The notes below the pieces were generated by a model. That model worked only from the letters and a program-made list of their open reading frames with translations, made no database searches and was not told where the DNA came from. The position numbers were made by a program, and so were the translations under genes. This document shows positions 230-33,916 of a DNA stretch of 33,916 bases, in pieces. Source of the stretch: Candidatus Cloacimonadota bacterium (GTDB taxonomy: Bacteria; Cloacimonadota; Cloacimonadia; Cloacimonadales; Cloacimonadaceae); contig JAJBAV010000029.1 in assembly GCA_020532085.1 (NCBI GenBank), positions 1 to 33,916 of the forward strand, read 5' to 3'. How positions within the stretch are numbered: the stretch's first letter is position 1; the number at the start of each line of letters is the position of its first letter.

Positions 230-3200
230 TCATTTCAGCAGCACAGCCTTGCGCGAGGCTGTGAGCGCGGGTGACGCGATGCGGAAGAAGTAGATGCCAG
301 AGGCCACGGGGCGGCGGGATTCGTCGGTGCCGTCCCAGAGGATCCGGTGGGTGCCCGCGCCGAGAGGAGCTTGCAGCAGGCAGCGCACCAGCTGGCCCTT
401 CACGTTGTAAACGGCCAGGGTCACCGGGGTGGCTTCCGCGAGGTCGAACATCACGGTGGTGCTGGGGTTGAAGGGGTTGGGATAGTTCTGATGGAGCCGG
501 GAGACCAGCGGAGGTGTGTGTTGATCGTTGCCGTCCACATAGGGCCAGGCCACGCCAAGAACATCAGTGGCGACGCTGGCGCCGGCATCGTAGCAGGCCA
601 GAACGTAATAGCGGTATTCGCCGTCAACGGCTGGCAGTTCGCTCCAAGCGGTATCCGTAACGATGGCCATCAGTTCGAAGGGGCCGGAATTCAGCTTGCG
701 GAAGACCTGGTAGTTCAGCACGGTGGAGGGCGGGGCAGCGGGAGCTTCCCAGAAGAGGGAGAAGGTATCCTGGTTGACGCTGAAGTCCAGTCCGGAAGCG
801 GGTGTGAGCCAGGTGAGCAGAAAATCCTGCGGGAAGCTGGGGCTGCTCACGCTGAGATTCACGGGGAATACGCTTTGGGACTGGTATCCGGGGCCGGAGG
901 CAGTCACGTTGTGCACGCCCTCGGGCAGATAGAGGGTGTAGGCCCCGTCGGCATCTGGACGGGTGGTGATGGCTTCCGCGTTTTGCACGAAGAGGGTGGA
1001 ATAGTCATCCTCGGGACGGGTGGTCTGCACCAGGCCGCTCACCTTGCCGGCGAAGGGGATGAAGCCGGTGGTCTGAACGTCGTCCAGATACCAACCCTGG
1101 CCCTGGATCATGGTGTCCGCGGCAAAGGTCCAGCGAAATCTCACAGTCTGGTTGGAATAGGCGCTCAGCGAGAAGCGGGCCTGCGTCCAGCCATTGCTGT
1201 TGCCGGCATATCCGGGTCCGTTGAGGGCAGCCACGGACTGCTGGGTGTAGCCGTTTTCCGGGGTAAGCAGGGTCCAGGTGCTGCCGTTGTTGGCGGAGAT
1301 CTTCACGTTGCCGCCGTCATAGTTGAGTTCGGTGTCGAACCAGTGGTAAAATTCCAGGATGAAATTGCCACCGATGAAAACGGGCGGTGAGGTTAGTGTC
1401 CAGTTCACGTTGTTGGGATACTGCTGGTTGATGCGGGTGCCCCAGGCCTTGGTGCCGGAATGCGCGCCGGCGGTGGTGTCCGTTCCCCACTCCCAGCCGT
1501 TGGTGGCTGGCTGGGCCTCGAAAGCGCCGTTGTTGGCCTCAAAATCCTCGAACATGCCGGTGGTTCCCACATTGAGCAGAAAAACCTCGTTCTGGGCCTC
1601 CACCGCTTCGCCGAGGAAGGTGAGGTAGAAAGTGAGATTGTTGCCCACGATCACATTGGGCGAGAGGCTGACCTCGTAAATGGCCTGGCTCACTGCGCCG
1701 GCTGGAATGGCCGGGATCAGCTGCTGGGAATTCACCAAGGTAACGTCGCCACTAAGGCACATGATGTTGCTGGTGAGGTTGTAGGCGGCTACGGCGCCGT
1801 TGTTCACATAGTTCACGATCAGGTTGAAGGTCTCGCCGGGATCGGCCAGTCCGTCCACATCGCCCTGCAGGTCGCTGATATAGATCCCGCATAGCTCGAC
1901 GGCGGGTTTCTTGATGGTGAGCGTGAGGGGATAGGTCCATTCGTTGCCGTTGATGCTCACCTCAAACTGGAGGGGGATCACGAGGTTGTTGGTGCAGTCG
2001 GGCGAGGCGGTGACCATGAAAGGCACCACATTCACGGCGGAACCGCTTCCAGGTATGTCCGGACAGGCGCTTTGGGGATTGGCGATGGTGAGGAGGGGAC
2101 TCACGGTGGAGGCGGTGACCTGCACGTTGGTGGCGGTGTCGATGCCGAGGTTGTTCAGCTTGATGCCGATCTGGGCGGTCTCACCGGGTTCCAGCCAGGA
2201 ATTGGCGTTGGCGTCGTCGAGGATGAGTTCCCCCACCACCAGGTGAGCGCTTTGATGCAGCACGGGCACGGTGGTAATGAGCAGGGCCTTGCCGTTGGCG
2301 AGCGGCTCCGCGGCGGGCGGATACTGGTTGCTGAAGGTGTATTCAAGGCCGCGCAGGTTGGTGTGGTCGCGGATGCCCACGGTGCAGTGTTTACCATGGG
2401 TGGGGGTGTAGCCGCTGCTGCCGATGTCCACGTTGTTGAAGACCTTGTACTGGAACTTGATCATGCCGTCGCCGAGGCTGGAGGGATAGAAGAGGGGATC
2501 GTAGAAGATCACCTGGAAGGTTTCCTCGCTGCTGCGATTGTAGCCGTTTTTCAGGTTGTGGTACTGGATGATGAAGATGTGCTCGTTGGGGTCGTAATAG
2601 CGGTAGATGCCGCCTCCGGAGAGGATCACGAGGTCATCCCAGAAAGGCGCGATCATCGGTGAGGGACCCTGTCCGCCAGGCATTCTGCCGTTGCGGAATT
2701 CGCCGTCGAAAGTAACGCCCAGGGCGATGAAACCGTTCACGCAGACGGTGATCTGGTTGTAATCCACCCCGTAATAGCGGAAGGGGAAAGGCAGATCGAT
2801 GGTTTCAAGGGCATCGCTGCCCACTTGGTCACCTTCGTCTCCGTTGGTTCCGGAATCGTTGAGCCCCGTGATCAGGGTACCGCTGCCGCCCAGGCTGGGC
2901 ACGATCTCGACCCATTGGTAGCTGGGGCAGTCCGGGTAGGCGGTGTCCGAGACATCGTAGATGAAATAGCCGTATTCATCGGGTCCGAGGGGCGTGTTCT
3001 GCGCCACCGTGCCGATGGGCAGGGAAAAGTGGGTGATCTGTTCCAGACCGGAGGCGTTGTAGAGCCTCAGTTTGAAGGGGATCATCATTCCGGGGATCAG
3101 CAGGGGCCGGGCGAAGAGGCCAAAACCGTCGATGGAGGAGGCGTTCATGCCGGCAGGGATGCCACCGAAATAGGAGGTGCTGTCGGTTACCACCACCAGG

Positions 3201-5668
3201 TCGTTAAGTGCTGTGAGTTCGCCGTAAACATCGCTGGCGCCAAACACGGAGGAATTGCTTACGGTGATGGTGAGGATGCCGTTCTCGGAGGGATCGAGCA
3301 CGCTGTTGCCGCCGGCGCTTACGCTCTGGTTGCTCACGCTGAGGTCGGCGTTGAAGCTGCCCAGGTGGAAGATGGCCTGATAGCTGTTGGCAGCGCTGTC
3401 CGTGAGGTTGAGGATGAAACGGCAGTCGTGGAAGGCGGGGATGTTTTGCGCGAAGCTAACCAGGAAGGGCACGCTGTTCACGGTCGTGTGTTCGGCCAGG
3501 GTGGCCGGCCAGGCGCTGCTGGACTGGGTGATGTTCACCAGCGGATCGGCGGAGCTGAGCACCCCGGTAATGCCGTCGATGGTGGCGGCGGTGGAATTGC
3601 TTAGCTCCACGCTGAGGGCGACGGTCTCCCCCGCGTTGATGAAGTTGTCGCCGTTTCCGGAAGAGCCGGCGCTGCCGTCATCGGCAAAGGTTTTGGCATA
3701 AAAGACCAAAGAACCGGCGGGGTCGATCGGCAGGATCTGCTGGGCGGGCTTGTGATCGTGTTTGGAAGCGGTGATCAGCAGATCAGAGCTCACGAAATTG
3801 GGCACCTGCAGGGTGACCTCACCGCTGGCATCAGTGAAGCCTTTGGCCACCACGTCGCCGTAGCCGTCGCTGTAGAGAGTAACGCTCACATCAGCCAGGG
3901 GATTCATGGAAGTGTCAGAGATCTGGATGTCCACCAGGCTGGTACCCCGCGGGATGGAATCCGGAGCGCTAATGACAAGGGATCCGGGTATGCCGATGAA
4001 GGTTTCCACGGTGGGGTCTCCCATCAGGTTGCACCAGTGGGCGAAATAATTCGTCTGGGTGGGGTTGGCCTGGCCGTAGATGTTATAGAGGTAAAGGCGT
4101 CCGTTGAGCAGGGCCTCACCCATGTTGCGCATGCCATAGAGGAAGATGCCGTCGAAAATGCCGCTGGAAAGTGCGTTGTTGAACATCGTGTGGGTGCCGG
4201 AGGTAGCCATGCCGATGGCGGTGAGGGCGCCTTTGGGAACGGCTTCCGTGCCCAGGCGAACGAAGGCTTCGGAGGTGGCGGGACCGTAGGTGGAGGCATA
4301 GCTGCCGGTGCCGCAAGTGAGGATCACAGCGTGTGGCAGGCGAGGACCGTTGTTCAGGGCGCTGCCGGGATCCCAGCCGCTCATGCCGATGTAGCCGCGG
4401 TAGTTGAAGAAGCTCACGCCTGTGTTGATGCCGGAATTGATGGTGGAGGAATAGCCCCCGGAGTAGTTCTCGATGTAGCTGTAGTCGGGATTGACGCTGT
4501 GGGTCATCTCGTGGATGTGCTGGTTGGTGTAGATGGTGGAGATGCCGGAGGAGGAGGGATCGCCGATCAGCAGCATGCGGTTTAGCCAGGCGGCGGCAGC
4601 GGGATCGTTGTTGATGTTCTTTTCGTAGGTGTAGACCTTGTTCAGCAGGGTGTTCAGCTGCGAAAGGTTTTCGGCGGAAAGGCGGCCGATGAAGACATCC
4701 CCAAGCAGGTCACCACCGGCCAGATGGGTGTAGGGATAATCACCTTCCCCGGCGTAGGAACTGTAGTTTTCGGTCCAGGCCGGGATCGGATAGCTGCCGA
4801 TGGTATCGCCCAGCAGGATCACGAAATCCGGGCGGGTTTCCGGATCGTTGTACTGGCCTTGGATATAGTTCTTGATGGCGGTGGTGCTGGTCCCGCCGGC
4901 CTGGGTAGTGCTCACCACGGTGACAGTGTAGCCTTTCTGGCGTTTCCAGGTGGCGAATTCCAGGACTTTGGCCAGGAAAACCGGATCGCTGTTGTTGCCG
5001 TGGATCAGCAGGATGCGGGCGTGGGCGGGCGCTGTAACCAGTCTGCTGTAATCGGCAAAATTGGCGATCTGGGCCTCGTAAATGTTTTGGAAAGCCTGGC
5101 TGTAGGTGCTGTAATCCGGAAGTTCATTCAAGCCGGGCTGGGAGGTGAAATCCAGGGTTACCTCGATGTCGCTGTAGGTGGCCAGGCGCATGGTGGCAGG
5201 ATCGTACTGGCAGGGGTGGACGTTGATCTGCACCACCCGGAAATCACGTAATATGGCGGGATCGGACGCGGTGGCCAGGATGTCGGGATAGAGTCCGCCG
5301 GCAGGGCTGGTTCCGTTCGCAGAACCTTCCCGGTGCAGCCTGGGGTTTTCCAACTGGCTGTATTCCACGCCGCCGTAGCTGTAAGATAGCGTGAAGCTGC
5401 CCCGGGGCGGGATCGCCACCATGGTGCTGAGCACGGGCAGTTCCGGCTGTCCGGGTTCCGAAGTGCTGAAAGCGCCTTCCATGCGGACTTCTTTCACGGC
5501 CTGACCCCCGTCTTCGCCAGCGGCAAGGCTCAAAGCGGGCACGGAGACCGCGAGTTTAAGCTGGCTGCCTGATGACCGGGCAACCGAGAATGGGTTGGTG
5601 GATGTTTCAGCGCCGAGAGCGGCAAGGCAGAGCAGGGCCAAAACTGATAGCGACAGGATCCTTTTCAT
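230..5668 (-). CDS. Giant secreted gingipain-like (C25 family) protein with type A T9SS sorting domain
   Basis: A 1,812-aa exported protein. The start chosen is the ATG at 5668 (MKRILSLSVLALLCLAALGA, a signal peptide), because an AAGGA lies about 7 nt upstream; an in-frame ATG 21 nt further up would spoil the signal peptide. Domains in order (approximate residues): signal 1-20; propeptide-like region 25-210; C25 peptidase-like domain 215-560; Ig-like 561-640; CARDB-like repeats near 670-700, 790-810, 1155-1190 and 1270-1310, each with a D-x-GE/PGE box; a beta-rich domain 900-1130; a jelly-roll or MAM-like domain 1370-1540; a carboxypeptidase-regulatory-like domain 1543-1612; FN3 1616-1706; and a C-terminal sorting domain from NYPNPFNPST to the end. 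The LTCGTG segment near residue 452 matches the gingipain nucleophile, but the usual G-H catalytic position reads NYRGYIG (near residue 424). It is either an unusual peptidase or an inactive adhesin. It probably acts at the cell surface after type IX secretion. Confidence 0.87.
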   Translation of the reverse strand: MKRILSLSVLALLCLAALGAETSTNPFSVARSSGSQLKLAVSVPALSLAAGEDGGQAVKEVRMEGAFSTSEPGQPELPVLSTMVAIPPRGSFTLSYSYGGVEYSQLENPRLHREGSANGTSPAGGLYPDILATASDPAILRDFRVVQINVHPCQYDPATMRLATYSDIEVTLDFTSQPGLNELPDYSTYSQAFQNIYEAQIANFADYSRLVTAPAHARILLIHGNNSDPVFLAKVLEFATWKRQKGYTVTVVSTTQAGGTSTTAIKNYIQGQYNDPETRPDFVILLGDTIGSYPIPAWTENYSSYAGEGDYPYTHLAGGDLLGDVFIGRLSAENLSQLNTLLNKVYTYEKNINNDPAAAAWLNRMLLIGDPSSSGISTIYTNQHIHEMTHSVNPDYSYIENYSGGYSSTINSGINTGVSFFNYRGYIGMSGWDPGSALNNGPRLPHAVILTCGTGSYASTYGPATSEAFVRLGTEAVPKGALTAIGMATSGTHTMFNNALSSGIFDGIFLYGMRNMGEALLNGRLYLYNIYGQANPTQTNYFAHWCNLMGDPTVETFIGIPGSLVISAPDSIPRGTSLVDIQISDTSMNPLADVSVTLYSDGYGDVVAKGFTDASGEVTLQVPNFVSSDLLITASKHDHKPAQQILPIDPAGSLVFYAKTFADDGSAGSSGNGDNFINAGETVALSVELSNSTAATIDGITGVLSSADPLVNITQSSSAWPATLAEHTTVNSVPFLVSFAQNIPAFHDCRFILNLTDSAANSYQAIFHLGSFNADLSVSNQSVSAGGNSVLDPSENGILTITVSNSSVFGASDVYGELTALNDLVVVTDSTSYFGGIPAGMNASSIDGFGLFARPLLIPGMMIPFKLRLYNASGLEQITHFSLPIGTVAQNTPLGPDEYGYFIYDVSDTAYPDCPSYQWVEIVPSLGGSGTLITGLNDSGTNGDEGDQVGSDALETIDLPFPFRYYGVDYNQITVCVNGFIALGVTFDGEFRNGRMPGGQGPSPMIAPFWDDLVILSGGGIYRYYDPNEHIFIIQYHNLKNGYNRSSEETFQVIFYDPLFYPSSLGDGMIKFQYKVFNNVDIGSSGYTPTHGKHCTVGIRDHTNLRGLEYTFSNQYPPAAEPLANGKALLITTVPVLHQSAHLVVGELILDDANANSWLEPGETAQIGIKLNNLGIDTATNVQVTASTVSPLLTIANPQSACPDIPGSGSAVNVVPFMVTASPDCTNNLVIPLQFEVSINGNEWTYPLTLTIKKPAVELCGIYISDLQGDVDGLADPGETFNLIVNYVNNGAVAAYNLTSNIMCLSGDVTLVNSQQLIPAIPAGAVSQAIYEVSLSPNVIVGNNLTFYLTFLGEAVEAQNEVFLLNVGTTGMFEDFEANNGAFEAQPATNGWEWGTDTTAGAHSGTKAWGTRINQQYPNNVNWTLTSPPVFIGGNFILEFYHWFDTELNYDGGNVKISANNGSTWTLLTPENGYTQQSVAALNGPGYAGNSNGWTQARFSLSAYSNQTVRFRWTFAADTMIQGQGWYLDDVQTTGFIPFAGKVSGLVQTTRPEDDYSTLFVQNAEAITTRPDADGAYTLYLPEGVHNVTASGPGYQSQSVFPVNLSVSSPSFPQDFLLTWLTPASGLDFSVNQDTFSLFWEAPAAPPSTVLNYQVFRKLNSGPFELMAIVTDTAWSELPAVDGEYRYYVLACYDAGASVATDVLGVAWPYVDGNDQHTPPLVSRLHQNYPNPFNPSTTVMFDLAEATPVTLAVYNVKGQLVRCLLQAPLGAGTHRILWDGTDESRRPVASGIYFFRIASPALTASRKAVLLK

Positions 5669-17391: not shown

Positions 17392-17749
17392 TCATTTTTT
17401 CCACGATTCCATGATCAAAGGTGATAGAACATACATTTTCCCCACCGGTCCATGAACCCGATCTGAGGCTTCCACTCTTATCGCCTCCCGGTCGATCAAT
17501 CCGGCGATGCATTCATTGAACTCCCTCTTTCTCATGTGGGAGGAGTTGAGCAGGCTGGAGTGTCCGGCTTTCCCGCCGTATTTGTTTACCAGCAGGTCCA
17601 CCAGTTTGCGTTCCCCGGCGAGGCGGTCGTGTTCGCTCACGATCTCCAGGAAGGGGATGGTGGTGTTGAAGTAGAAGTCGCGGAGGTGGAGGCTTTGGGC
17701 GGCGGTTGCTTCCGAAACGTTGAAGACGCTTGACAGATATGGGGGCGTA
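17392..17749 (-). pseudogene. Start-less remnant resembling the C-terminus of a mobile-element replication protein
   Basis: The minus-strand frame is open for about 118 codons from a TAA just above 17749 down to the stop at 17392. It has no ATG start; a GTG at 17640 would give only 82 residues and would lie in the middle of the conserved-looking helix (NTTIPFLEIVSEHDRLAGER). The tail KYGGKAGHSSLLNSSHMRKREFNECI looks like a winged-helix segment (SHMRKREF...LIDREAI), as at the end of primase-like/DUF3987-type proteins of plasmids and phages. The family assignment is tentative, from memory of patterns. The upstream part is missing and a new promoter lies across its 5' end, so I treat it as a truncated gene. 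Confidence 0.45.
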
Positions 17750-27540: not shown

Positions 27541-29595
27541 TTATGCTTCGGAATCCTGCCAGGCGGCGATCACTTTGGCCGCTATGTCGTCAGGAACCTT
27601 TTCGTAGTGCGAGAATTTTTGGGTGAAGCGTCCCCTGCCCTGGGTGAAGGACTTGAGGGCGGGATAGTAAAAGTACATCTCGGCCACGGGCATCTGCGCG
27701 TTCAGATACTGTTTCTTGCCGCGCTGTTCCATGCCCATGATGCGTCCGCGCCGGGTGTTGATGTCGCCCATCACGTCGCCCATGTATTCGCTGGGAACGA
27801 TGATGGTGAGCTCGTGGATGGGTTCCAGCAGGATGGGGCGGCATTTCTTGAAGCCTTCCTTCAGCGCCATCGAAGAGGCGATCTTGAAGGCCATTTCCGA
27901 GCTGTCCACATCGTGATAGCTGCCGTAATAGACTTCCACGCTCACGTCCACCACCTGATATCCGGCCACCACGCCTTTGTCCATGGTTTCCACCAGGCCT
28001 TTTTCGATGGCGGGAACGAAGTTCGAGGGGATCACGCCGCCCACGATGGCGTTGATGAATTGAAAGCCTTCGCCGCGTTCGGTGGGTTTGATGCGGAAAT
28101 AGACTTCGCCGTACTGGCCGCGGCCGCCGGATTGCTTTTTGTGGCGGTATTGCGATTCCGCGCCCGCGGTGATGGTCTCTTTATAGGGAATGCGCGGTTC
28201 CTTCATCATGGCATCCACTTTGTAGCGGTTTTTCAGCTTTCTGAGCACCAACTGCAGTTGCTGTTCGCCCATGCCGGAGATCACGTTTTCGTGGGTTTCC
28301 AGGTTCAGGTCGAACCTGATGGTGGGGTCTTCCGCGATCACGCGCTGCAGGCTGCTGCCGATCTTGTCTTCGTCGCTCTGGTTGGCGGCGCGGATCATCT
28401 GCCAGTAGGTGGCGGTGGGAAGTTCCGGCACCGGCAGGCTCATATCGCTGCCCAGGGCCACGATTGTATTGAGGGCTTTGGCGTTTTTCAGCTTCACCAT
28501 CGCTCCGATCTCGCCCGCTCTGATCTCCTGGGTGTCGCTGCGGTTTTTGCCCAGCATGTAATACATGTTGCCGGCTTTGTCTTTGGCGTCCTTTTCAGGG
28601 ATGTAAAATTCCATGCCGGCTTTGAGGGTGCCGGAGAAAATGCGCACATAGGCATAGTCGCCCATGTTCGGATCGGCGTAGAGCTTGAACACATAGCCCA
28701 GCAGCTCGCCGTCGGCGGTGGCGGTGAATTCGGCCGGCTCGCCGTTTTTCAGCACCTGGATGGGATTGGCTTCCTCGGGCGAGGGCAGGTAGTCGCAAAC
28801 CGCGTCCAGCAAGGCCATAACGCCGGCCCCGGTGTGGGCGGAACAGGCGAAGGCCGGGCAGATGTCGCCGTTGGCCACGGCCTGTTTGAGGCCTTTGAGC
28901 AGTTGTGCGTCGCTCAGTTCCATGTTTTCCAAAAAGGTGTTGAGCAGTTCCTCGTCGGTCTCCGCCACCGCTTCCATCAGGTGCAGGCGGGCGTCGTCCA
29001 CGGCACTCTGCATGTCGGCCGGGATCTCGCCTTCGCCGGCGGGACGGATGGCTTTCTGGCGGATGATGTCCACCACGCCTTCAAAGGTGTTTTCCTTGCC
29101 GATGGGCAAATGCACCGGGATCGGATTGAGGCCGGCATTTTCGTGGATGGATTCCAGGGTCTTGAAGAAATCCGCGTGTTCGTTGTCCATGCGGTTCACC
29201 ACCACGATCTTGCCCACCTTTCTCTGCTCGAGCTGCTCGATCGCCAGTTCCAGGCCCACTTCGAAGCCGCTGGCGGCGTTCGCCACCAACACCGCGTTTT
29301 CCACGGCCGGAATGGCCACGATCGCGTCACCGATGAAATCGGGGGTTCCCGGGGTATCCAGGATGTTGATCTTGTGGTCCTTGTGGTTCAGCCAGCCCAG
29401 GCTCAGGCTCAGGGACATCTTTTTGGCCGTTTCTTCGGCGTCGAAGTCCATCACGGTGTTGCCTTCGTCGATCTTGCCCAGGCGGCTGGTGGTGTGGGTC
29501 AGATGGAAGATCTGTTCCGCCAGGGTGGTCTTGCCCGCGCCGCTCGCTCCCATCAGGAGGAGGTTGCGCAGCTTGGAAAGTTTGTATTCTTTCAT
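27541..29595 (-). CDS. EF-G-like translational GTPase (paralogue)
   Basis: A 684-aa GTPase with the five-domain layout of elongation factor G. G1 is GASGAGKTT (residues 16-24), not the A-H-x-D-x-GKTT of true EF-G; G3 is DTPGTPDF; G4 is VVNRMD (N-R-M-D in place of N-K-x-D); the switch region reads GNTVMDFDAEE instead of the usual TMDWM. Domains II-V follow, with GMGEQQLQ, RIPYKETI, GGRGQYGEV and GRIMGME matching EF-G. These changes are those of the EF-G-like group seen in Thermus and many other bacteria, whose role beside the main EF-G is unsettled. AGGA lies 5 nt before the ATG. Monocistronic, given the terminator after it. Confidence 0.92.
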   Translation of the reverse strand: MKEYKLSKLRNLLLMGASGAGKTTLAEQIFHLTHTTSRLGKIDEGNTVMDFDAEETAKKMSLSLSLGWLNHKDHKINILDTPGTPDFIGDAIVAIPAVENAVLVANAASGFEVGLELAIEQLEQRKVGKIVVVNRMDNEHADFFKTLESIHENAGLNPIPVHLPIGKENTFEGVVDIIRQKAIRPAGEGEIPADMQSAVDDARLHLMEAVAETDEELLNTFLENMELSDAQLLKGLKQAVANGDICPAFACSAHTGAGVMALLDAVCDYLPSPEEANPIQVLKNGEPAEFTATADGELLGYVFKLYADPNMGDYAYVRIFSGTLKAGMEFYIPEKDAKDKAGNMYYMLGKNRSDTQEIRAGEIGAMVKLKNAKALNTIVALGSDMSLPVPELPTATYWQMIRAANQSDEDKIGSSLQRVIAEDPTIRFDLNLETHENVISGMGEQQLQLVLRKLKNRYKVDAMMKEPRIPYKETITAGAESQYRHKKQSGGRGQYGEVYFRIKPTERGEGFQFINAIVGGVIPSNFVPAIEKGLVETMDKGVVAGYQVVDVSVEVYYGSYHDVDSSEMAFKIASSMALKEGFKKCRPILLEPIHELTIIVPSEYMGDVMGDINTRRGRIMGMEQRGKKQYLNAQMPVAEMYFYYPALKSFTQGRGRFTQKFSHYEKVPDDIAAKVIAAWQDSEA

Positions 29596-29888: not shown

Positions 29889-29918
29889 TTGACACATTTA
29901 TCAAATCCGATTTATTGT
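29889..29918 (+). promoter_or_regulatory. Possible sigma-70-like promoter for the propeller/PKD gene
   Basis: TTGACA (29889-29894) is followed after 18 nt by TATTGT (29913-29918), about 36 nt before the ATG at 29954. The -35 is perfect and the -10 is weak (four of six). Confidence 0.4.
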
Positions 29919-29953
29919 TTTTCATAGAATTCAGACAAATTCTGGAGGAAAGG

Positions 29954-32257
29954 ATGACTTGTCTAAAAGGTTTTATGCTCTGTGCGGCAATGCTCTTAGT
30001 CATTATTGGATTATCGGCACAAGCGTATGAATGGTCATGGGCAAATAGTGCTGGAGGAGGTCATGGCTTCGGTGATTATGGATATGCGATAGCAAGCGAT
30101 AGCCAAGACAATCTATATATATCTGGAACTTTTTCAGGAACTGCATCTTTTGGACCTACTACGCTAAACAGTAGTGGTGATACCGATATATTTGTAGCAA
30201 AGCTAGATACTAATGGTAATTGGCTTTGGGCAAAAAAGGCTGGAGGTTCTTTGGGTGATGGTGGTATTGGGATTGCGGTAGATGGAGAAGACAATGTATG
30301 TCTGACTGGATATTTTCGTGGATCAGCAACATTTGGTTCAAATACTATTACTGCCAGTGGAAATGAGGATTTATTTGTAGCCAAACTTGATGCAAGCGGC
30401 AATTGGCTCTGGGCAAAAAAGGCTGGGGGGTCTGGTAACGATTATGGCGCGAGTATCGCGGTTGATATCAATGCAAATATCTACTCAACCGGGTATTTTG
30501 AAGGAAATGCTAACTTTGGAACCACATCCCTATCAAGCTACGGCTCTTATGATATCTTCATAACCAAATTGGATTCAAACGGTAATTGGCTTTGGGCAAA
30601 AAAAGCAGGAGGAGTAGGAAACGATAGTCCTAGTGACTTGGCTGTCGATAGTGATGGAAATGTCTTTATAACAGGAGGTTTTTTAGAAACTGCTAACTTT
30701 GGTACCACATCGCTATCGAGCAATGGATCTAATGATATCTTCGTGGCGAAACTGGATACAAATGGTAACTGGCTCATGGTAAGAGGAGCTGGGGGACCAA
30801 GTACTGATGTCCCTTACGGAATCGCCCTGGATGCTGATGGCAATGTGTATCTGACAGGACTCTTTGATTTTTATTCCTACTTTGGCTCTATTACTTTGCA
30901 ACCCTTTGGTTATTATGATATCTTTATTGCCAAGCTTGATTCTAGCGGCAACTGGGTCTGGGCACAAGAAGCAGGGGGAGTAGATAGTGATATTAGCTAT
31001 GACATAGCAGTGGATGAAAATACGAACATTTATCTTACCGGAAATTTTAAAGGAAGTTCTACCTTTGGTACCACATCGCTATCGAGCAATGGATCTAATG
31101 ATATCTTCGTGGCGAAACTGGATACAAATGGTAGTTGGCTAACGGCAATACGAGCGGGAGGAATAAATCAGGATTATTGCAGAGGAATCACTGTTGACGA
31201 AAATGGATGCGTTTTCCTAGTCGGTTCTTTCGAGTTTGGTTCATCTTTCGGAACGGTATCCCTTGTAAGTAATGGACACGCAGATGTATTCATCGCAAAG
31301 CTATCGCCCCCTGATCCTATAGCTTCCTTTACTGCCGATGTTACCGAAGGTATTAGTCCCTTGGACATTCAGTTTACAGACTCTTCTTTACCAGGCGGAG
31401 CACCTATTACTGATTGGTTTTGGGATTTCGGTGATGGAGGAACTTCCTTTGCACAAAATCCTATCCACACGTATCTTGTGGCAGGTACTTACAGCATTAG
31501 TCTTTCAGTTACAAACGGATTGAATTTGAATTCAATAAAAGTGAGGATAAACTACATATCAGTTTTAGACCAGATCTATTACATAGATTTAATATCATCT
31601 TCACCTGTAAATTTCGGCTCAGTATATGTAGAAGAGCAATCAGCCTATCAAGAGGTAGAGTTAATCAATTCAGGTACAATGGATATCAATATCAGTGATG
31701 CGCATTTTGTCTCTACACCACTGCATTTTGAGTTTGTTAATCCTTTTAGGGATATAGTTCTCAGCCCTGGTGAGACGGATTCTATAATGGTACGTTTCAC
31801 TCCTCACGCAGTGGGGTCGATGACGGATACTCTTTTCATTGTGAACAACTCCACGAATCTTCCTATACTAAGTGTAACGCTTAATGGAACTGGATTACAC
31901 GTTCTACCTAAAGCTCCACAAAATCTAAGTATAACCGTTAGTGGCAACGATGCATATTTGAGCTGGGATGCAGTTACTCAGAATACACACGATCAAGAGA
32001 TTGTACCTGATTATTACATCATATACATCTCCAGTGATCCCTTCGGGTCATATACTATGATGACATTAACACCTAATCTCAACTACACTCATTCTTATGT
32101 AGGGTTAGGTGCTGAGCGCATGTTCTATCGAGTGACTGCAGTTAAATTCTATCGGGATGATCTTTCACCTTCAGAATTGGACGCATATCTTAGGAGGAAT
32201 GTAACTCCTGGTATGACAGAAACTGATGTACGAGCATTATTGAATGAGTTAGATTAG
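29954..32257 (+). CDS. Exported seven-bladed SBBP propeller, PKD and Hydin-like domain protein
   Basis: A 767-aa exported protein. ATG 29954 is preceded by GGAGGAAAGG at ideal spacing; a 13-codon extension upstream has no such site. Signal peptide about 1-24 (ending LSAQA). Residues 25-455 contain seven repeats of roughly 58-60 residues, each with blade words of the type VYLTGxF, FGTTSLSSNGSNDIFVAKLD and GNWLWAKKAGG: the SBBP repeat, here in the exact number for a seven-bladed propeller. A PKD domain follows (about 455-535; WFWDFGDGGTSF, THTYLVAGTYSISLSVTN-type), then an ASPM/SPD-2/Hydin-like domain (540-648; VNFGSVYVEE), an FN3-like domain (650-735) and a short helical tail. No sorting signal of the NYPNPFNP type is present. 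AT-rich codon use contrasts with the rest of the window. A structural or adhesive surface role is inferred. Confidence 0.85.
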   Translation: MTCLKGFMLCAAMLLVIIGLSAQAYEWSWANSAGGGHGFGDYGYAIASDSQDNLYISGTFSGTASFGPTTLNSSGDTDIFVAKLDTNGNWLWAKKAGGSLGDGGIGIAVDGEDNVCLTGYFRGSATFGSNTITASGNEDLFVAKLDASGNWLWAKKAGGSGNDYGASIAVDINANIYSTGYFEGNANFGTTSLSSYGSYDIFITKLDSNGNWLWAKKAGGVGNDSPSDLAVDSDGNVFITGGFLETANFGTTSLSSNGSNDIFVAKLDTNGNWLMVRGAGGPSTDVPYGIALDADGNVYLTGLFDFYSYFGSITLQPFGYYDIFIAKLDSSGNWVWAQEAGGVDSDISYDIAVDENTNIYLTGNFKGSSTFGTTSLSSNGSNDIFVAKLDTNGSWLTAIRAGGINQDYCRGITVDENGCVFLVGSFEFGSSFGTVSLVSNGHADVFIAKLSPPDPIASFTADVTEGISPLDIQFTDSSLPGGAPITDWFWDFGDGGTSFAQNPIHTYLVAGTYSISLSVTNGLNLNSIKVRINYISVLDQIYYIDLISSSPVNFGSVYVEEQSAYQEVELINSGTMDINISDAHFVSTPLHFEFVNPFRDIVLSPGETDSIMVRFTPHAVGSMTDTLFIVNNSTNLPILSVTLNGTGLHVLPKAPQNLSITVSGNDAYLSWDAVTQNTHDQEIVPDYYIIYISSDPFGSYTMMTLTPNLNYTHSYVGLGAERMFYRVTAVKFYRDDLSPSELDAYLRRNVTPGMTETDVRALLNELD
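30697..30767 (+). repeat. 71-bp identical intragenic repeat, copy 1 (blade 4)
   Basis: The bases from CTTTGGTACCACATCGCTAT to GATACAAATGGTA are identical to those at 31063-31133. It encodes the blade segment FGTTSLSSNGSNDIFVAKLD and adjoining residues. Other blades share the protein pattern but not the DNA sequence. Confidence 0.9.
31063..31133 (+). repeat. 71-bp identical intragenic repeat, copy 2 (blade 6)
   Basis: A second copy of the 71-bp stretch at 30697-30767, 366 bp downstream and in frame, encoding the same blade segment in blade 6. Identity ends with the codon after GGTA (AAC versus AGT). Confidence 0.9.
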
Positions 32258-32301
32258 TCTACCCGTGCCCAAAACAACCTTGGGCTCTGTTATAACCATA
32301 G

Positions 32302-32472
32302 CCCGGGCGTGTTCAAGAATGTGGAAGGGCACATTTCTGGTATTTGCTGACCGCAACCGATGGCAGCGAAGTATCCCAAAGTAACATTGACATAATCGAA
32401 CAAAAGCTGTCGCCTAAGCAGCAAAGCAAGGTCCAGGCCCGGGCGACGAAATGGTTCGAGGAGCACCAGTAA
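32302..32472 (+). pseudogene. C-terminal remnant of a Sel1/TPR-like repeat protein
   Basis: An open frame of 56 codons follows a TAG at 32299-32301 and ends at TAA 32470-32472; it has no start codon or ribosome site. It reads QECGRAHFWYLLTATDGSEV, then EQKLSPKQQSKVQARATKWF and EEHQ. The order A-x2-WYLLTA, then LSPKQQ..AQARATKW, is the usual end of Sel1-repeat proteins (last repeat plus the L-x-P-E-Q...A..W tail). Composition is more GC-rich than its neighbours. Probably the end of a gene whose upstream part was lost when the flanking AT-rich DNA arrived. Just upstream, a weak hairpin GCCCAA/TTGGGC (32267-32285) could end the preceding gene. Confidence 0.5.
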
Positions 32473-32939
32473 GTATCTGAAAGGCGCACCAATAAACAAG
32501 CTTGGGCAGTTGGAGCCAGGGAACATTGGCTAAAACACGCAGTTTACAGCAGCGTGATCGTCAACTGCTGCAAAGGTACTAAAAAAAATAGATCGGGCCT
32601 TCAAGGCTATTCTAAGCTCGATTAAACGGCATATCAGGAAGGCTCTGCAGTCTCGCGCGCGTGCTATTTTCATTCCAAACAAAAAAATAATTTGCTTTTT
32701 CCGGAATTTGCATTATATTATATATAATGGGAAATTTTAGAATTTTTTGGCGGGCACCGGAGAAACCGATGCCATGCCCATATAACTTGGCAATATCGGC
32801 ACCAAACACTTCGAGCACATATATGAACATAAACAATAAAACTAAAAAAGCAAAAGCAAAAAAACATAAACAGATCCAAAACAGGTGTTTATCAAACATC
32901 AGAAAAAACAGGCTCCCAAGTGGAGCGAAAGGAGACAAG
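32473..32939. other. AT-rich leader region before the primase-like gene
   Basis: No gene is supported here. TATATAAT at 32721-32728 contains a perfect TATAAT (32723-32728), but no TTGACA-like box lies 16-18 nt upstream. A frame open from ATG 32727 continues into the next gene, but its 71 extra codons are Lys/Asn-rich and low in complexity and have no ribosome site, so I regard this stretch as an untranslated leader of about 200 nt. Confidence 0.45.
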
Positions 32940-33833
32940 ATGCCCAATAGTCAAAGTTCAGTGCCCAACGTGGATACTGAACAGAGTATCAACGGTGTTC
33001 CGATGCCAACAACCATTCCGGGACCCACGAGAACTACAACCGCTGCGATAGCAGCACATAATCCCATCTTAGGAGAAAATATGCCAGAAGCTACCCAAGA
33101 GATGCAAGTAGATGTTGCGTCTAAATCTAAATCCCAAACGTCAGAAGATAATATGATCGCGGTCGGGTTCACTCCCGATCTGCTGGATTTAACACTTGAA
33201 CAAAAAACAGAAATTTGCAACCAACTAACCCAGAACCCCAATCCAGACAATCTTGGGGAAATTCTATATTCTCTGGGATTTCGCAACAACAATGGCAAGA
33301 TATCCTTTGTTAAGAAGAATGTCGTATACGAAGTAAACCAACAAGAACTCATACAAAGCTTCCGATACTGTTTCTCGGGACAGCTACCACAGCTGAAAGC
33401 CGCGTTCTTTGGTAGAATTGGAACCCTGACGAACCAAACCGCGTTGAAGCACATAGCCGGATATGATCCCGAAATTGATGGGTATCCCTGCCGGCATGAC
33501 CGATACCATTTCTACACTCCCTATCTCAATGGAGTGCTTAAAGTAGATGGAAAAGGTTACATAAACATAATACCTTATGAAGGGTTCAATATGCTGGTGA
33601 ACGCATCTGAGATCAGACCTCGTCCAGTTTTAGTTACCGACGAAACTGTTAAGGAATCATACTGGCAACGATCTGATTTTTGGAAATTTACGAAGAATCA
33701 AGCAACCGACCCTATCAGCAAGTCATTCGATCCTGATTTGCATGAGGCGATCAGGATGGCAGTGGTAAAAATAATGCATCAATATCATAATAAGACCTTT
33801 GCACATAATCCTCAGGGTCTGGTTAAAAAGTAA
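32940..33833 (+). CDS. Protein resembling the N-terminal half of a phage/plasmid primase-helicase
   Basis: A 297-aa protein. ATG 32940 follows AAAGGAG at 5-nt spacing. Residues 1-75 are low-complexity and Thr/Pro/Gln-rich. Residues about 80-290 contain LGFRNNNGKISFVKKNVVYE, YHFYTPYLNGVLKVDGKG and IIPYEGFNMLV, and then DFWKFTKN ... LHEAIRMAVVKIMHQYHNK. This order (LGF-x-NG strand pair, NGVL followed by a PY turn, then a helix A-I-x-x-[LI]-x-H-x-[YF]) resembles the region in front of the helicase in Bacteroidetes-type mobile-element primase-helicases. The protein stops where the Walker A helicase would begin, so it is either truncated or a stand-alone variant. The match is by eye and tentative. 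AT-rich. Confidence 0.6.
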   Translation: MPNSQSSVPNVDTEQSINGVPMPTTIPGPTRTTTAAIAAHNPILGENMPEATQEMQVDVASKSKSQTSEDNMIAVGFTPDLLDLTLEQKTEICNQLTQNPNPDNLGEILYSLGFRNNNGKISFVKKNVVYEVNQQELIQSFRYCFSGQLPQLKAAFFGRIGTLTNQTALKHIAGYDPEIDGYPCRHDRYHFYTPYLNGVLKVDGKGYINIIPYEGFNMLVNASEIRPRPVLVTDETVKESYWQRSDFWKFTKNQATDPISKSFDPDLHEAIRMAVVKIMHQYHNKTFAHNPQGLVKK

Positions 33834-33879
33834 GAGCATTTAGGATCAAAAAGTAGTTTTTGAAATCTGCAAATAATTC

Positions 33880-33908
33880 TTGACAAAATAGATAGGCTCA
33901 TATTTTGT
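33880..33908 (+). promoter_or_regulatory. Possible promoter at the right edge
   Basis: TTGACA (33880-33885) is followed by TATTTT after 15 nt (33901) or TTTTGT after 17 nt (33903). It faces out of the window, so the controlled gene cannot be seen. The 46 bases before it (33834-33879) hold no terminator hairpin that I can find. Confidence 0.3.
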
Positions 33909-33916
33909 CACTCTAT

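Follow-up and report, generated by a model that had tools for sequence, protein, structure and literature searches.

An insertion element very probably splits a DUF5906-type helicase gene in a Candidatus Cloacimonadota genome

The DNA analysed here (the window) is 33,916 nucleotides long and constitutes the entire contig C29 of a genome assembled in 98 contigs (2.81 Mb). Close to its right end lies an ORF of 297 amino acids with an ATG start (32940-33833), of which the first 284 codons appear to be the front of a helicase gene and the remainder is DNA of an insertion element in which the contig stops. The features of the window are listed below with the basis of each.

17392..17718, minus strand: remnant, the C-terminal 108 residues of a DUF3987 helicase-like protein (genome and domain searches)
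27541..29595, minus strand: elongation-factor-G-like gene, the synteny anchor left of the island (genome searches)
29915..32257, plus strand: upstream gene with SBBP beta-propeller repeats and a PKD domain (domain search), absent from the same site in genome G003
32928..32934, plus strand: AAAGGAG, ribosome-binding-like, 5 bases 5' of the ATG (read from the letters)
32940..33791, plus strand: front of the helicase gene, first 284 codons, DUF5906-type, holding the pre-ATPase segment (ORF list, relatives, profile comparison)
33787..33791, plus strand: ATAAT, left copy of a 5-base target duplication with its right copy at C32:128-132
33792..33833, plus strand: 13 codons and stop of the ORF, derived from the element (side-by-side comparison of contig ends)
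33792..33916, plus strand: left end of a multi-copy insertion element, starting AAGACCTTTGCAC (the contig stops inside the element)

Residues 59-284 of the ORF are 39% identical to one uninterrupted relative (E 5e-59, from a single pairwise comparison), and residues 27-284 matched the same relative in the genome search (E 2.7e-56). Because of this match and of the AAAGGAG before the ATG, 32940-33791 is, judged from sequence, a coding region, and the relative in the same frame at E 5e-59 rules out a chance or non-coding ORF. The N-terminal 27-58 residues did not align with the closest relative. An earlier note on this DNA had given the gene a leader of about 200 nt; this is not established, despite a TATAAT that can be read at 32723-32728, as the promoter scan around the ORF listed nothing at that position and found 3 sites in the region against a shuffle mean of 3.4. 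No RNA family was detected in 32200-33916 at E up to 1, and no tRNA genes were found in the window or in the loci L032, L034, and L103. The window half by itself gave no convincing match in Pfam, PHROG, NCBIfam, or PDB, and the 297-residue protein folded alone gave a mean pLDDT of 35 and no usable fold. Several candidate assignments of the window half were rejected as noise: AIG1, DUF7369, a PHROG of unknown function, GrpE, and, among PDB hits, a deacetylase, a cutinase, an esterase, and others. The Pfam and NCBIfam scores were far under the cut-offs, and relatives supported none of the candidates.

The end of the contig was characterised by using its last 177 bases as a DNA query. This gave 15 strong matches in the same genome, C29 counted, each within one base of a contig end, and one further weak match in C11. 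From AAGACCTTTGCAC on, the 15 contig ends are identical save for scattered single-base differences, and the flanks before AAGACCTTTGCAC differ; other contigs, too, match the final residues of the ORF near their ends. In the window the boundary falls at 33791/33792, exactly between codons 284 and 285. Since this boundary is common to 15 contig ends, the final 13 codons (residues 285-297, KTFAHNPQGLVKK) and the stop are repeated-element DNA, outside the native helicase gene, and the assembly breaks there. The description of a 297-residue protein that stops before the helicase is thus right in part: the ORF is real and ends ahead of any ATPase, with Walker A, Walker B, and arginine finger all absent from the window half, but its last residues and its stop belong to the element.

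The element has inverted terminal repeats of 11 bases, AAGACCTTTGC, at both ends. Right ends like that of contig C32 occur 17 times in the genome (an 18th match, in C7, is weak) and form two sequence groups, 98-100% and 91-93% identical to C32's. The element sits at 32 of the 196 contig ends of this assembly (15 left, 17 right), about one in six, which implies at least 17 insertions. A 5-base flank is shared with a right end by 9 of the 15 left ends, compared with 0.13 on average, and never more than 3, among 2000 draws of random flanks; the other 6 have no 5-base partner, and the paired flanks ACTAT and TAGAT each fit more than one partner. The ATAAT flank pairs C29 with C32 only. Complete related elements were found in G026 and G002 with the same 11-base ends and a frame of 371 amino acids, which in the copy scanned, that of G026 (about 1.38 kb from its positions), matches DUF772 and DDE_Tnp_1 and is thus a DDE transposase. 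Neither of these two complete copies is flanked by a 5-base duplication. The element of this genome shares inverted ends and 5-base duplications with insertion sequences whose transposases carry DUF772 and DDE_Tnp_1 (IS5-like); a DDE transposase was seen in the complete related copy. The element's own transposase is not in the bin, so that it is assigned through the likeness of its ends; the search of the bin for the element body or transposase returned only a 70-residue match, at 31% identity, to the related transposase.

The helicase half of the split gene lies in the same genome at C32:130-1095. A search of the genome with the Pfam model for DUF5906 gave 4 matches, one of them over the cut-off of 27.6 bits (C32:190-510, 32.5 bits), with a model that matches weakly in all 14 control genomes and exceeds the cut-off in 3; the C32 half searched as a protein scored 30.4 bits. 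The alignments place in it GGTGKG, IWLDE, and SDLRRRF, which we take to be Walker A, Walker B, and the arginine finger, respectively. The first 127 bases of C32 end in GCAAAGGTCTT, the inverse of the element end in the window, and are followed by ATAATGTAAACG. When 45 bases from each side are joined with a single copy of ATAAT, the resulting empty site reads in frame as ...KIMHQYHN-VNDPSIVIFSEQ..., and this joined site aligns with uninterrupted relatives, the G006 protein reading HLHFNPVDPCAVIISEQ at the corresponding junction. We therefore conclude from these sequence features, rather than from any read that joins the two contigs, that an element very probably split a DUF5906 helicase gene whose two halves are held by C29 and C32. 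The view of the ORF as a stand-alone version of such a protein falls with this, as the element interrupts the gene at 33791/33792 and its helicase part follows on C32.

Gene order in another genome bears on the same join. The genes concerned are ones that we take, from their sequences, to be EF-G-like, yebC, infC, rplT, pheS, and pheT. In this genome C29 carries the EF-G-like gene and C32 carries infC-rplT-pheS-pheT; contig C131 of G003 has the order yebC, EF-G-like, about 0.7 kb, infC, rplT, pheS, pheT. G003 is without the helicase, and the genes flanking C29 and C32 adjoin there. Because the flanking genes stand side by side in G003, the C29-C32 join is independently supported. Here the interval between the EF-G-like gene and infC holds the beta-propeller gene, the split helicase, two small ORFs, a convergent gene of 225 amino acids, and two related genes of about 150 amino acids, and by subtraction it is about 8 kb longer than in G003. 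The window's EF-G-like gene (27544-29595) and the C32 pheT were each sought in 25 genomes, with matches in 25 and 24, respectively, and the synteny was informative in one of the 25 (G003). The remaining genomes are uninformative: the EF-G-like gene and pheT are separated onto different contigs, G007 yielded no pheT, or, in G015 and G051, the pheT contig carries just a distant relative of EF-G (about 30% identity).

With the 284 native residues as query, 4 of 97 genomes matched, and with a five-row profile 6 of the 49 genomes of the family did, this genome included in both counts. The uninterrupted members of the helicase family comprise 6 genes in 5 other genomes (G006 has two), all of which cross the junction; the P-loop follows the junction in every one, and all continue into the ATPase. 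Their stop-to-stop frames are 607, 575, 745, 636, 624, and 655 amino acids long. The G004 frame runs off the contig start, and the G025 match is listed with a stop that lies just ahead of the first codon of the frame (match from 9856, frame from 9862). The sequences fall into two groups, the window gene with G006:C72 and G025 versus G006:C5, G004, G008, and G010. Against the DUF5906 cut-off of 27.6 bits, the G008 protein passes at 28.7, and those of G025 (26.8), G010 (24.0), and G006:C5 (20.7) fall under it; G006:C72 and G004 gave no Pfam match. Searches of the genome under study for an uninterrupted copy returned only the two halves. Three named records hold a relative of the helicase family, all of them Candidatus Cloacimonadota bins. 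The window protein found no relative in the genome-contig collection and nothing in phage records, and pattern scans of the viral-contig collection with this protein or A5 gave no relative. Walker A reads GGTGKG, with G replacing the usual S/T, in the window group and in phage MW202828, and GGSGKS in the four members of the second group. A convergent protein of 205-225 amino acids with no convincing family stands beside the helicase in three genomes:

L032 (C32) 2525-3199, minus strand: convergent 205-225-aa protein
L034 11287-11934, minus strand: convergent 205-225-aa protein
L035 11697-12293, minus strand: convergent 205-225-aa protein

The earlier note had assigned the ORF to the segment that precedes the ATPase of mobile-element primase-helicases. 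This assignment was borne out, as the relatives continue into a DUF5906-type domain and the profile-profile comparison matched. In hhalign comparisons of the pre-ATPase segments, using profiles of three or four sequences each and no shuffled control, the window group matched the phage/plasmid group at 89.8% (E 1.8e-6) and the second Cloacimonadota group at 97.7%, and the second group matched phage/plasmid at 98.6%. BLASTP of the window half was weak (E 0.006 to Salinibacter and 0.56 to a phage). The family link is therefore made through relatives and profiles, and the profile search that had been suggested for primase-helicase families succeeded by that route and not with the window half alone. 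With the G010 protein as a tblastn query, five phage records matched, one annotated 'vire al domain', two from one phage 'DNA primase/TOPRIM', one hypothetical, and one unannotated. The G006:C72 protein matched three plasmid records, one of them annotated 'primase-helicase family protein'. The profile phrog_28855 (804 positions) matched three uninterrupted proteins over 439-708, 389-690, and 383-689 (E 1e-28, 1e-32, and 1.4e-37, respectively) and the C32 half over 520-690 (E 1.2e-24), and it gave no match to the window half alone. In another PHROG profile, named DNA primase (772 positions), the C32 half aligns with the helicase part, 513-628. Pfam found a primase domain in neither the window half nor any of the six uninterrupted relatives, and the three of the six that were run against PHROGs gave no primase profile.

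Several known proteins were compared with the family. The Caudoviricetes sp. MW202828 protein UOF82494 (phrog_28855) has the pre-ATPase segment and DUF5906 ATPase of the Cloacimonadota proteins. It carries BT4734-like_N and PriCT_1 in front, whereas the Cloacimonadota proteins have a variable N-terminus with no assigned domain. The primase-helicase WP_240333125 of Salinibacter ruber plasmid pSR14 is homologous to G006:C72 over residues 160-537 of the latter (25.5% identity); it has CHC2/TOPRIM-like primase parts that score below the Pfam cut-off and are DNA primase in PHROGs (7.2e-40). The general layout, with a segment before the DUF5906 AAA+ core, is the same as in the helicases of vaccinia D5 and phage NrS-1 (D5_N-DUF5906-Pox_D5), as given in PMC9611036, which terms helicase activity elusive even for D5. 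No sequence relation to D5 or NrS-1 was detected with the A1 profile among PDB chains at E up to 1, and the only two matches of that profile to PDB chains were weak and unrelated.

The second partial replication-like gene, placed by the earlier note at 17392, was confirmed as the end of a DUF3987 protein. Its 108 residues (17395-17718) are 64% identical to a full frame of 471 amino acids in G006, and the three full copies scanned all exceed the DUF3987 cut-off. DUF3987 is a predicted helicase of mobile elements (PMC5862659). Counting the remnant in the window, the genome has 13 matches to the family at E 0.01 or better, and longer DUF3987 frames of about 450-530 amino acids lie elsewhere in the genome. 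Both families represented by the window's partial genes, DUF5906 and DUF3987, recur in these genomes.

A protein of about 150 amino acids, with no Pfam match, is present on C32 in two related copies:

L032 (C32) 3305-3754: ~150-aa protein
L032 (C32) 3809-4258: ~150-aa protein

Three members of this family, the second C32 copy excluded, gave no match in PHROGs. The protein gave 68 match rows in 12 of the 13 genomes of the genus, merging to 65 places. Of these, 9 are no more than 5 kb from a DUF3987 match and 4 no more than 5 kb from a DUF5906 gene, and at 52 places no helicase of either kind is in reach; the proximity counts are raw, and for DUF3987 they used 46 of 54 rows, with 8 weaker or outside-genus rows excluded, one of which (G001:C14) is also within 5 kb of the gene. 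Conversely, 4 of the 6 DUF5906 genes of the genus have the ~150-aa gene within 5 kb, and of the remaining two, one is on a contig of 3.8 kb and the other stands where its contig starts. The 13.5-kb G025 contig holds no ~150-aa gene. In G010, too, such a gene (L106, G010:C57, 2-433) and the EF-G-like gene are about 5.5 kb apart, with the former on the expected infC side, so that insertions may recur at this intergenic site. We regard the association of this protein with the helicases as a lead and not as a demonstrated system.

Most likely, the split gene belonged to a small chromosomal island, as its helicase gene, and lost its function when the element transposed into it. By its family, the intact gene would have encoded a D5-like AAA+ ring helicase that copied a small mobile chromosomal island. 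Its primase would have been supplied from elsewhere, because Pfam shows no primase domain in any family member examined. The insertion element with AAGACCTTTGC ends very probably transposed between codons 284 and 285, duplicating ATAAT. The 297-residue product should be unable to hydrolyse ATP or unwind DNA, because Walker A, Walker B, and the arginine finger are missing from it. The C32 half would also be non-functional; it has no in-frame ATG, GTG, or TTG before C32:361, that is, past the P-loop. With a front that lacks the motor and a back that lacks a start codon before the ATPase motifs, the gene would be dead unless the element leaves precisely.

The insertion might instead be polymorphic, with the bin mixing uninterrupted and inserted cells and the assembler retaining the inserted version. 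The bin comprises 98 contigs and has 2.02% contamination, and the breaks studied fall at a repeat, but both flanking contigs extend about 125 bases into the element and only the two halves were recovered, so we consider a mixed population unlikely, though well worth keeping in mind. An artefact of assembly, in which the element end was wrongly attached to C29, is barely credible: C29 does end roughly one k-mer (probably 127 bases) into a repeat, where assemblers err, yet the 5-base flanks, the in-frame continuation, and the synteny all agree on C29-C32.

It is also conceivable that the truncated protein is itself useful, acting without a helicase as an adaptor or inhibitor. A plausible ribosome-binding stretch precedes its frame, which closes 42 bases into the element. 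However, all six other family genes run on into the ATPase, no stand-alone relative was found, and the 3' end is element DNA, which makes a role for the truncated protein highly improbable. Inactivation of an island helicase by transposition remains our preferred reading of the locus.

The apparent oddity of a primase-helicase without its helicase is thus removed by a transposition and a contig break at a repeat, and any scan that takes contigs one at a time can be expected to turn up similar false stand-alone domains where contigs end. The literature on Cloacimonadota insertion sequences, transposases, and primases, in the excerpts available, contained nothing about this island. Mildly new is the occurrence of Cloacimonadota islands whose helicases have no recognisable primase, often near a ~150-aa protein. 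We offer as a tentative and rather doubtful proposal that the split gene belongs to a set of small Cloacimonadota islands that rely for replication on a single ring helicase (DUF5906; in sister islands DUF3987), often carry the ~150-aa protein, and, lacking their own primase, borrow one from the host or a helper phage, as a minimal satellite-like replicon. Helicases with no recognisable primase, scattered over Cloacimonadota islands, provide a modest lead on how small mobile elements may replicate in a little-studied phylum.
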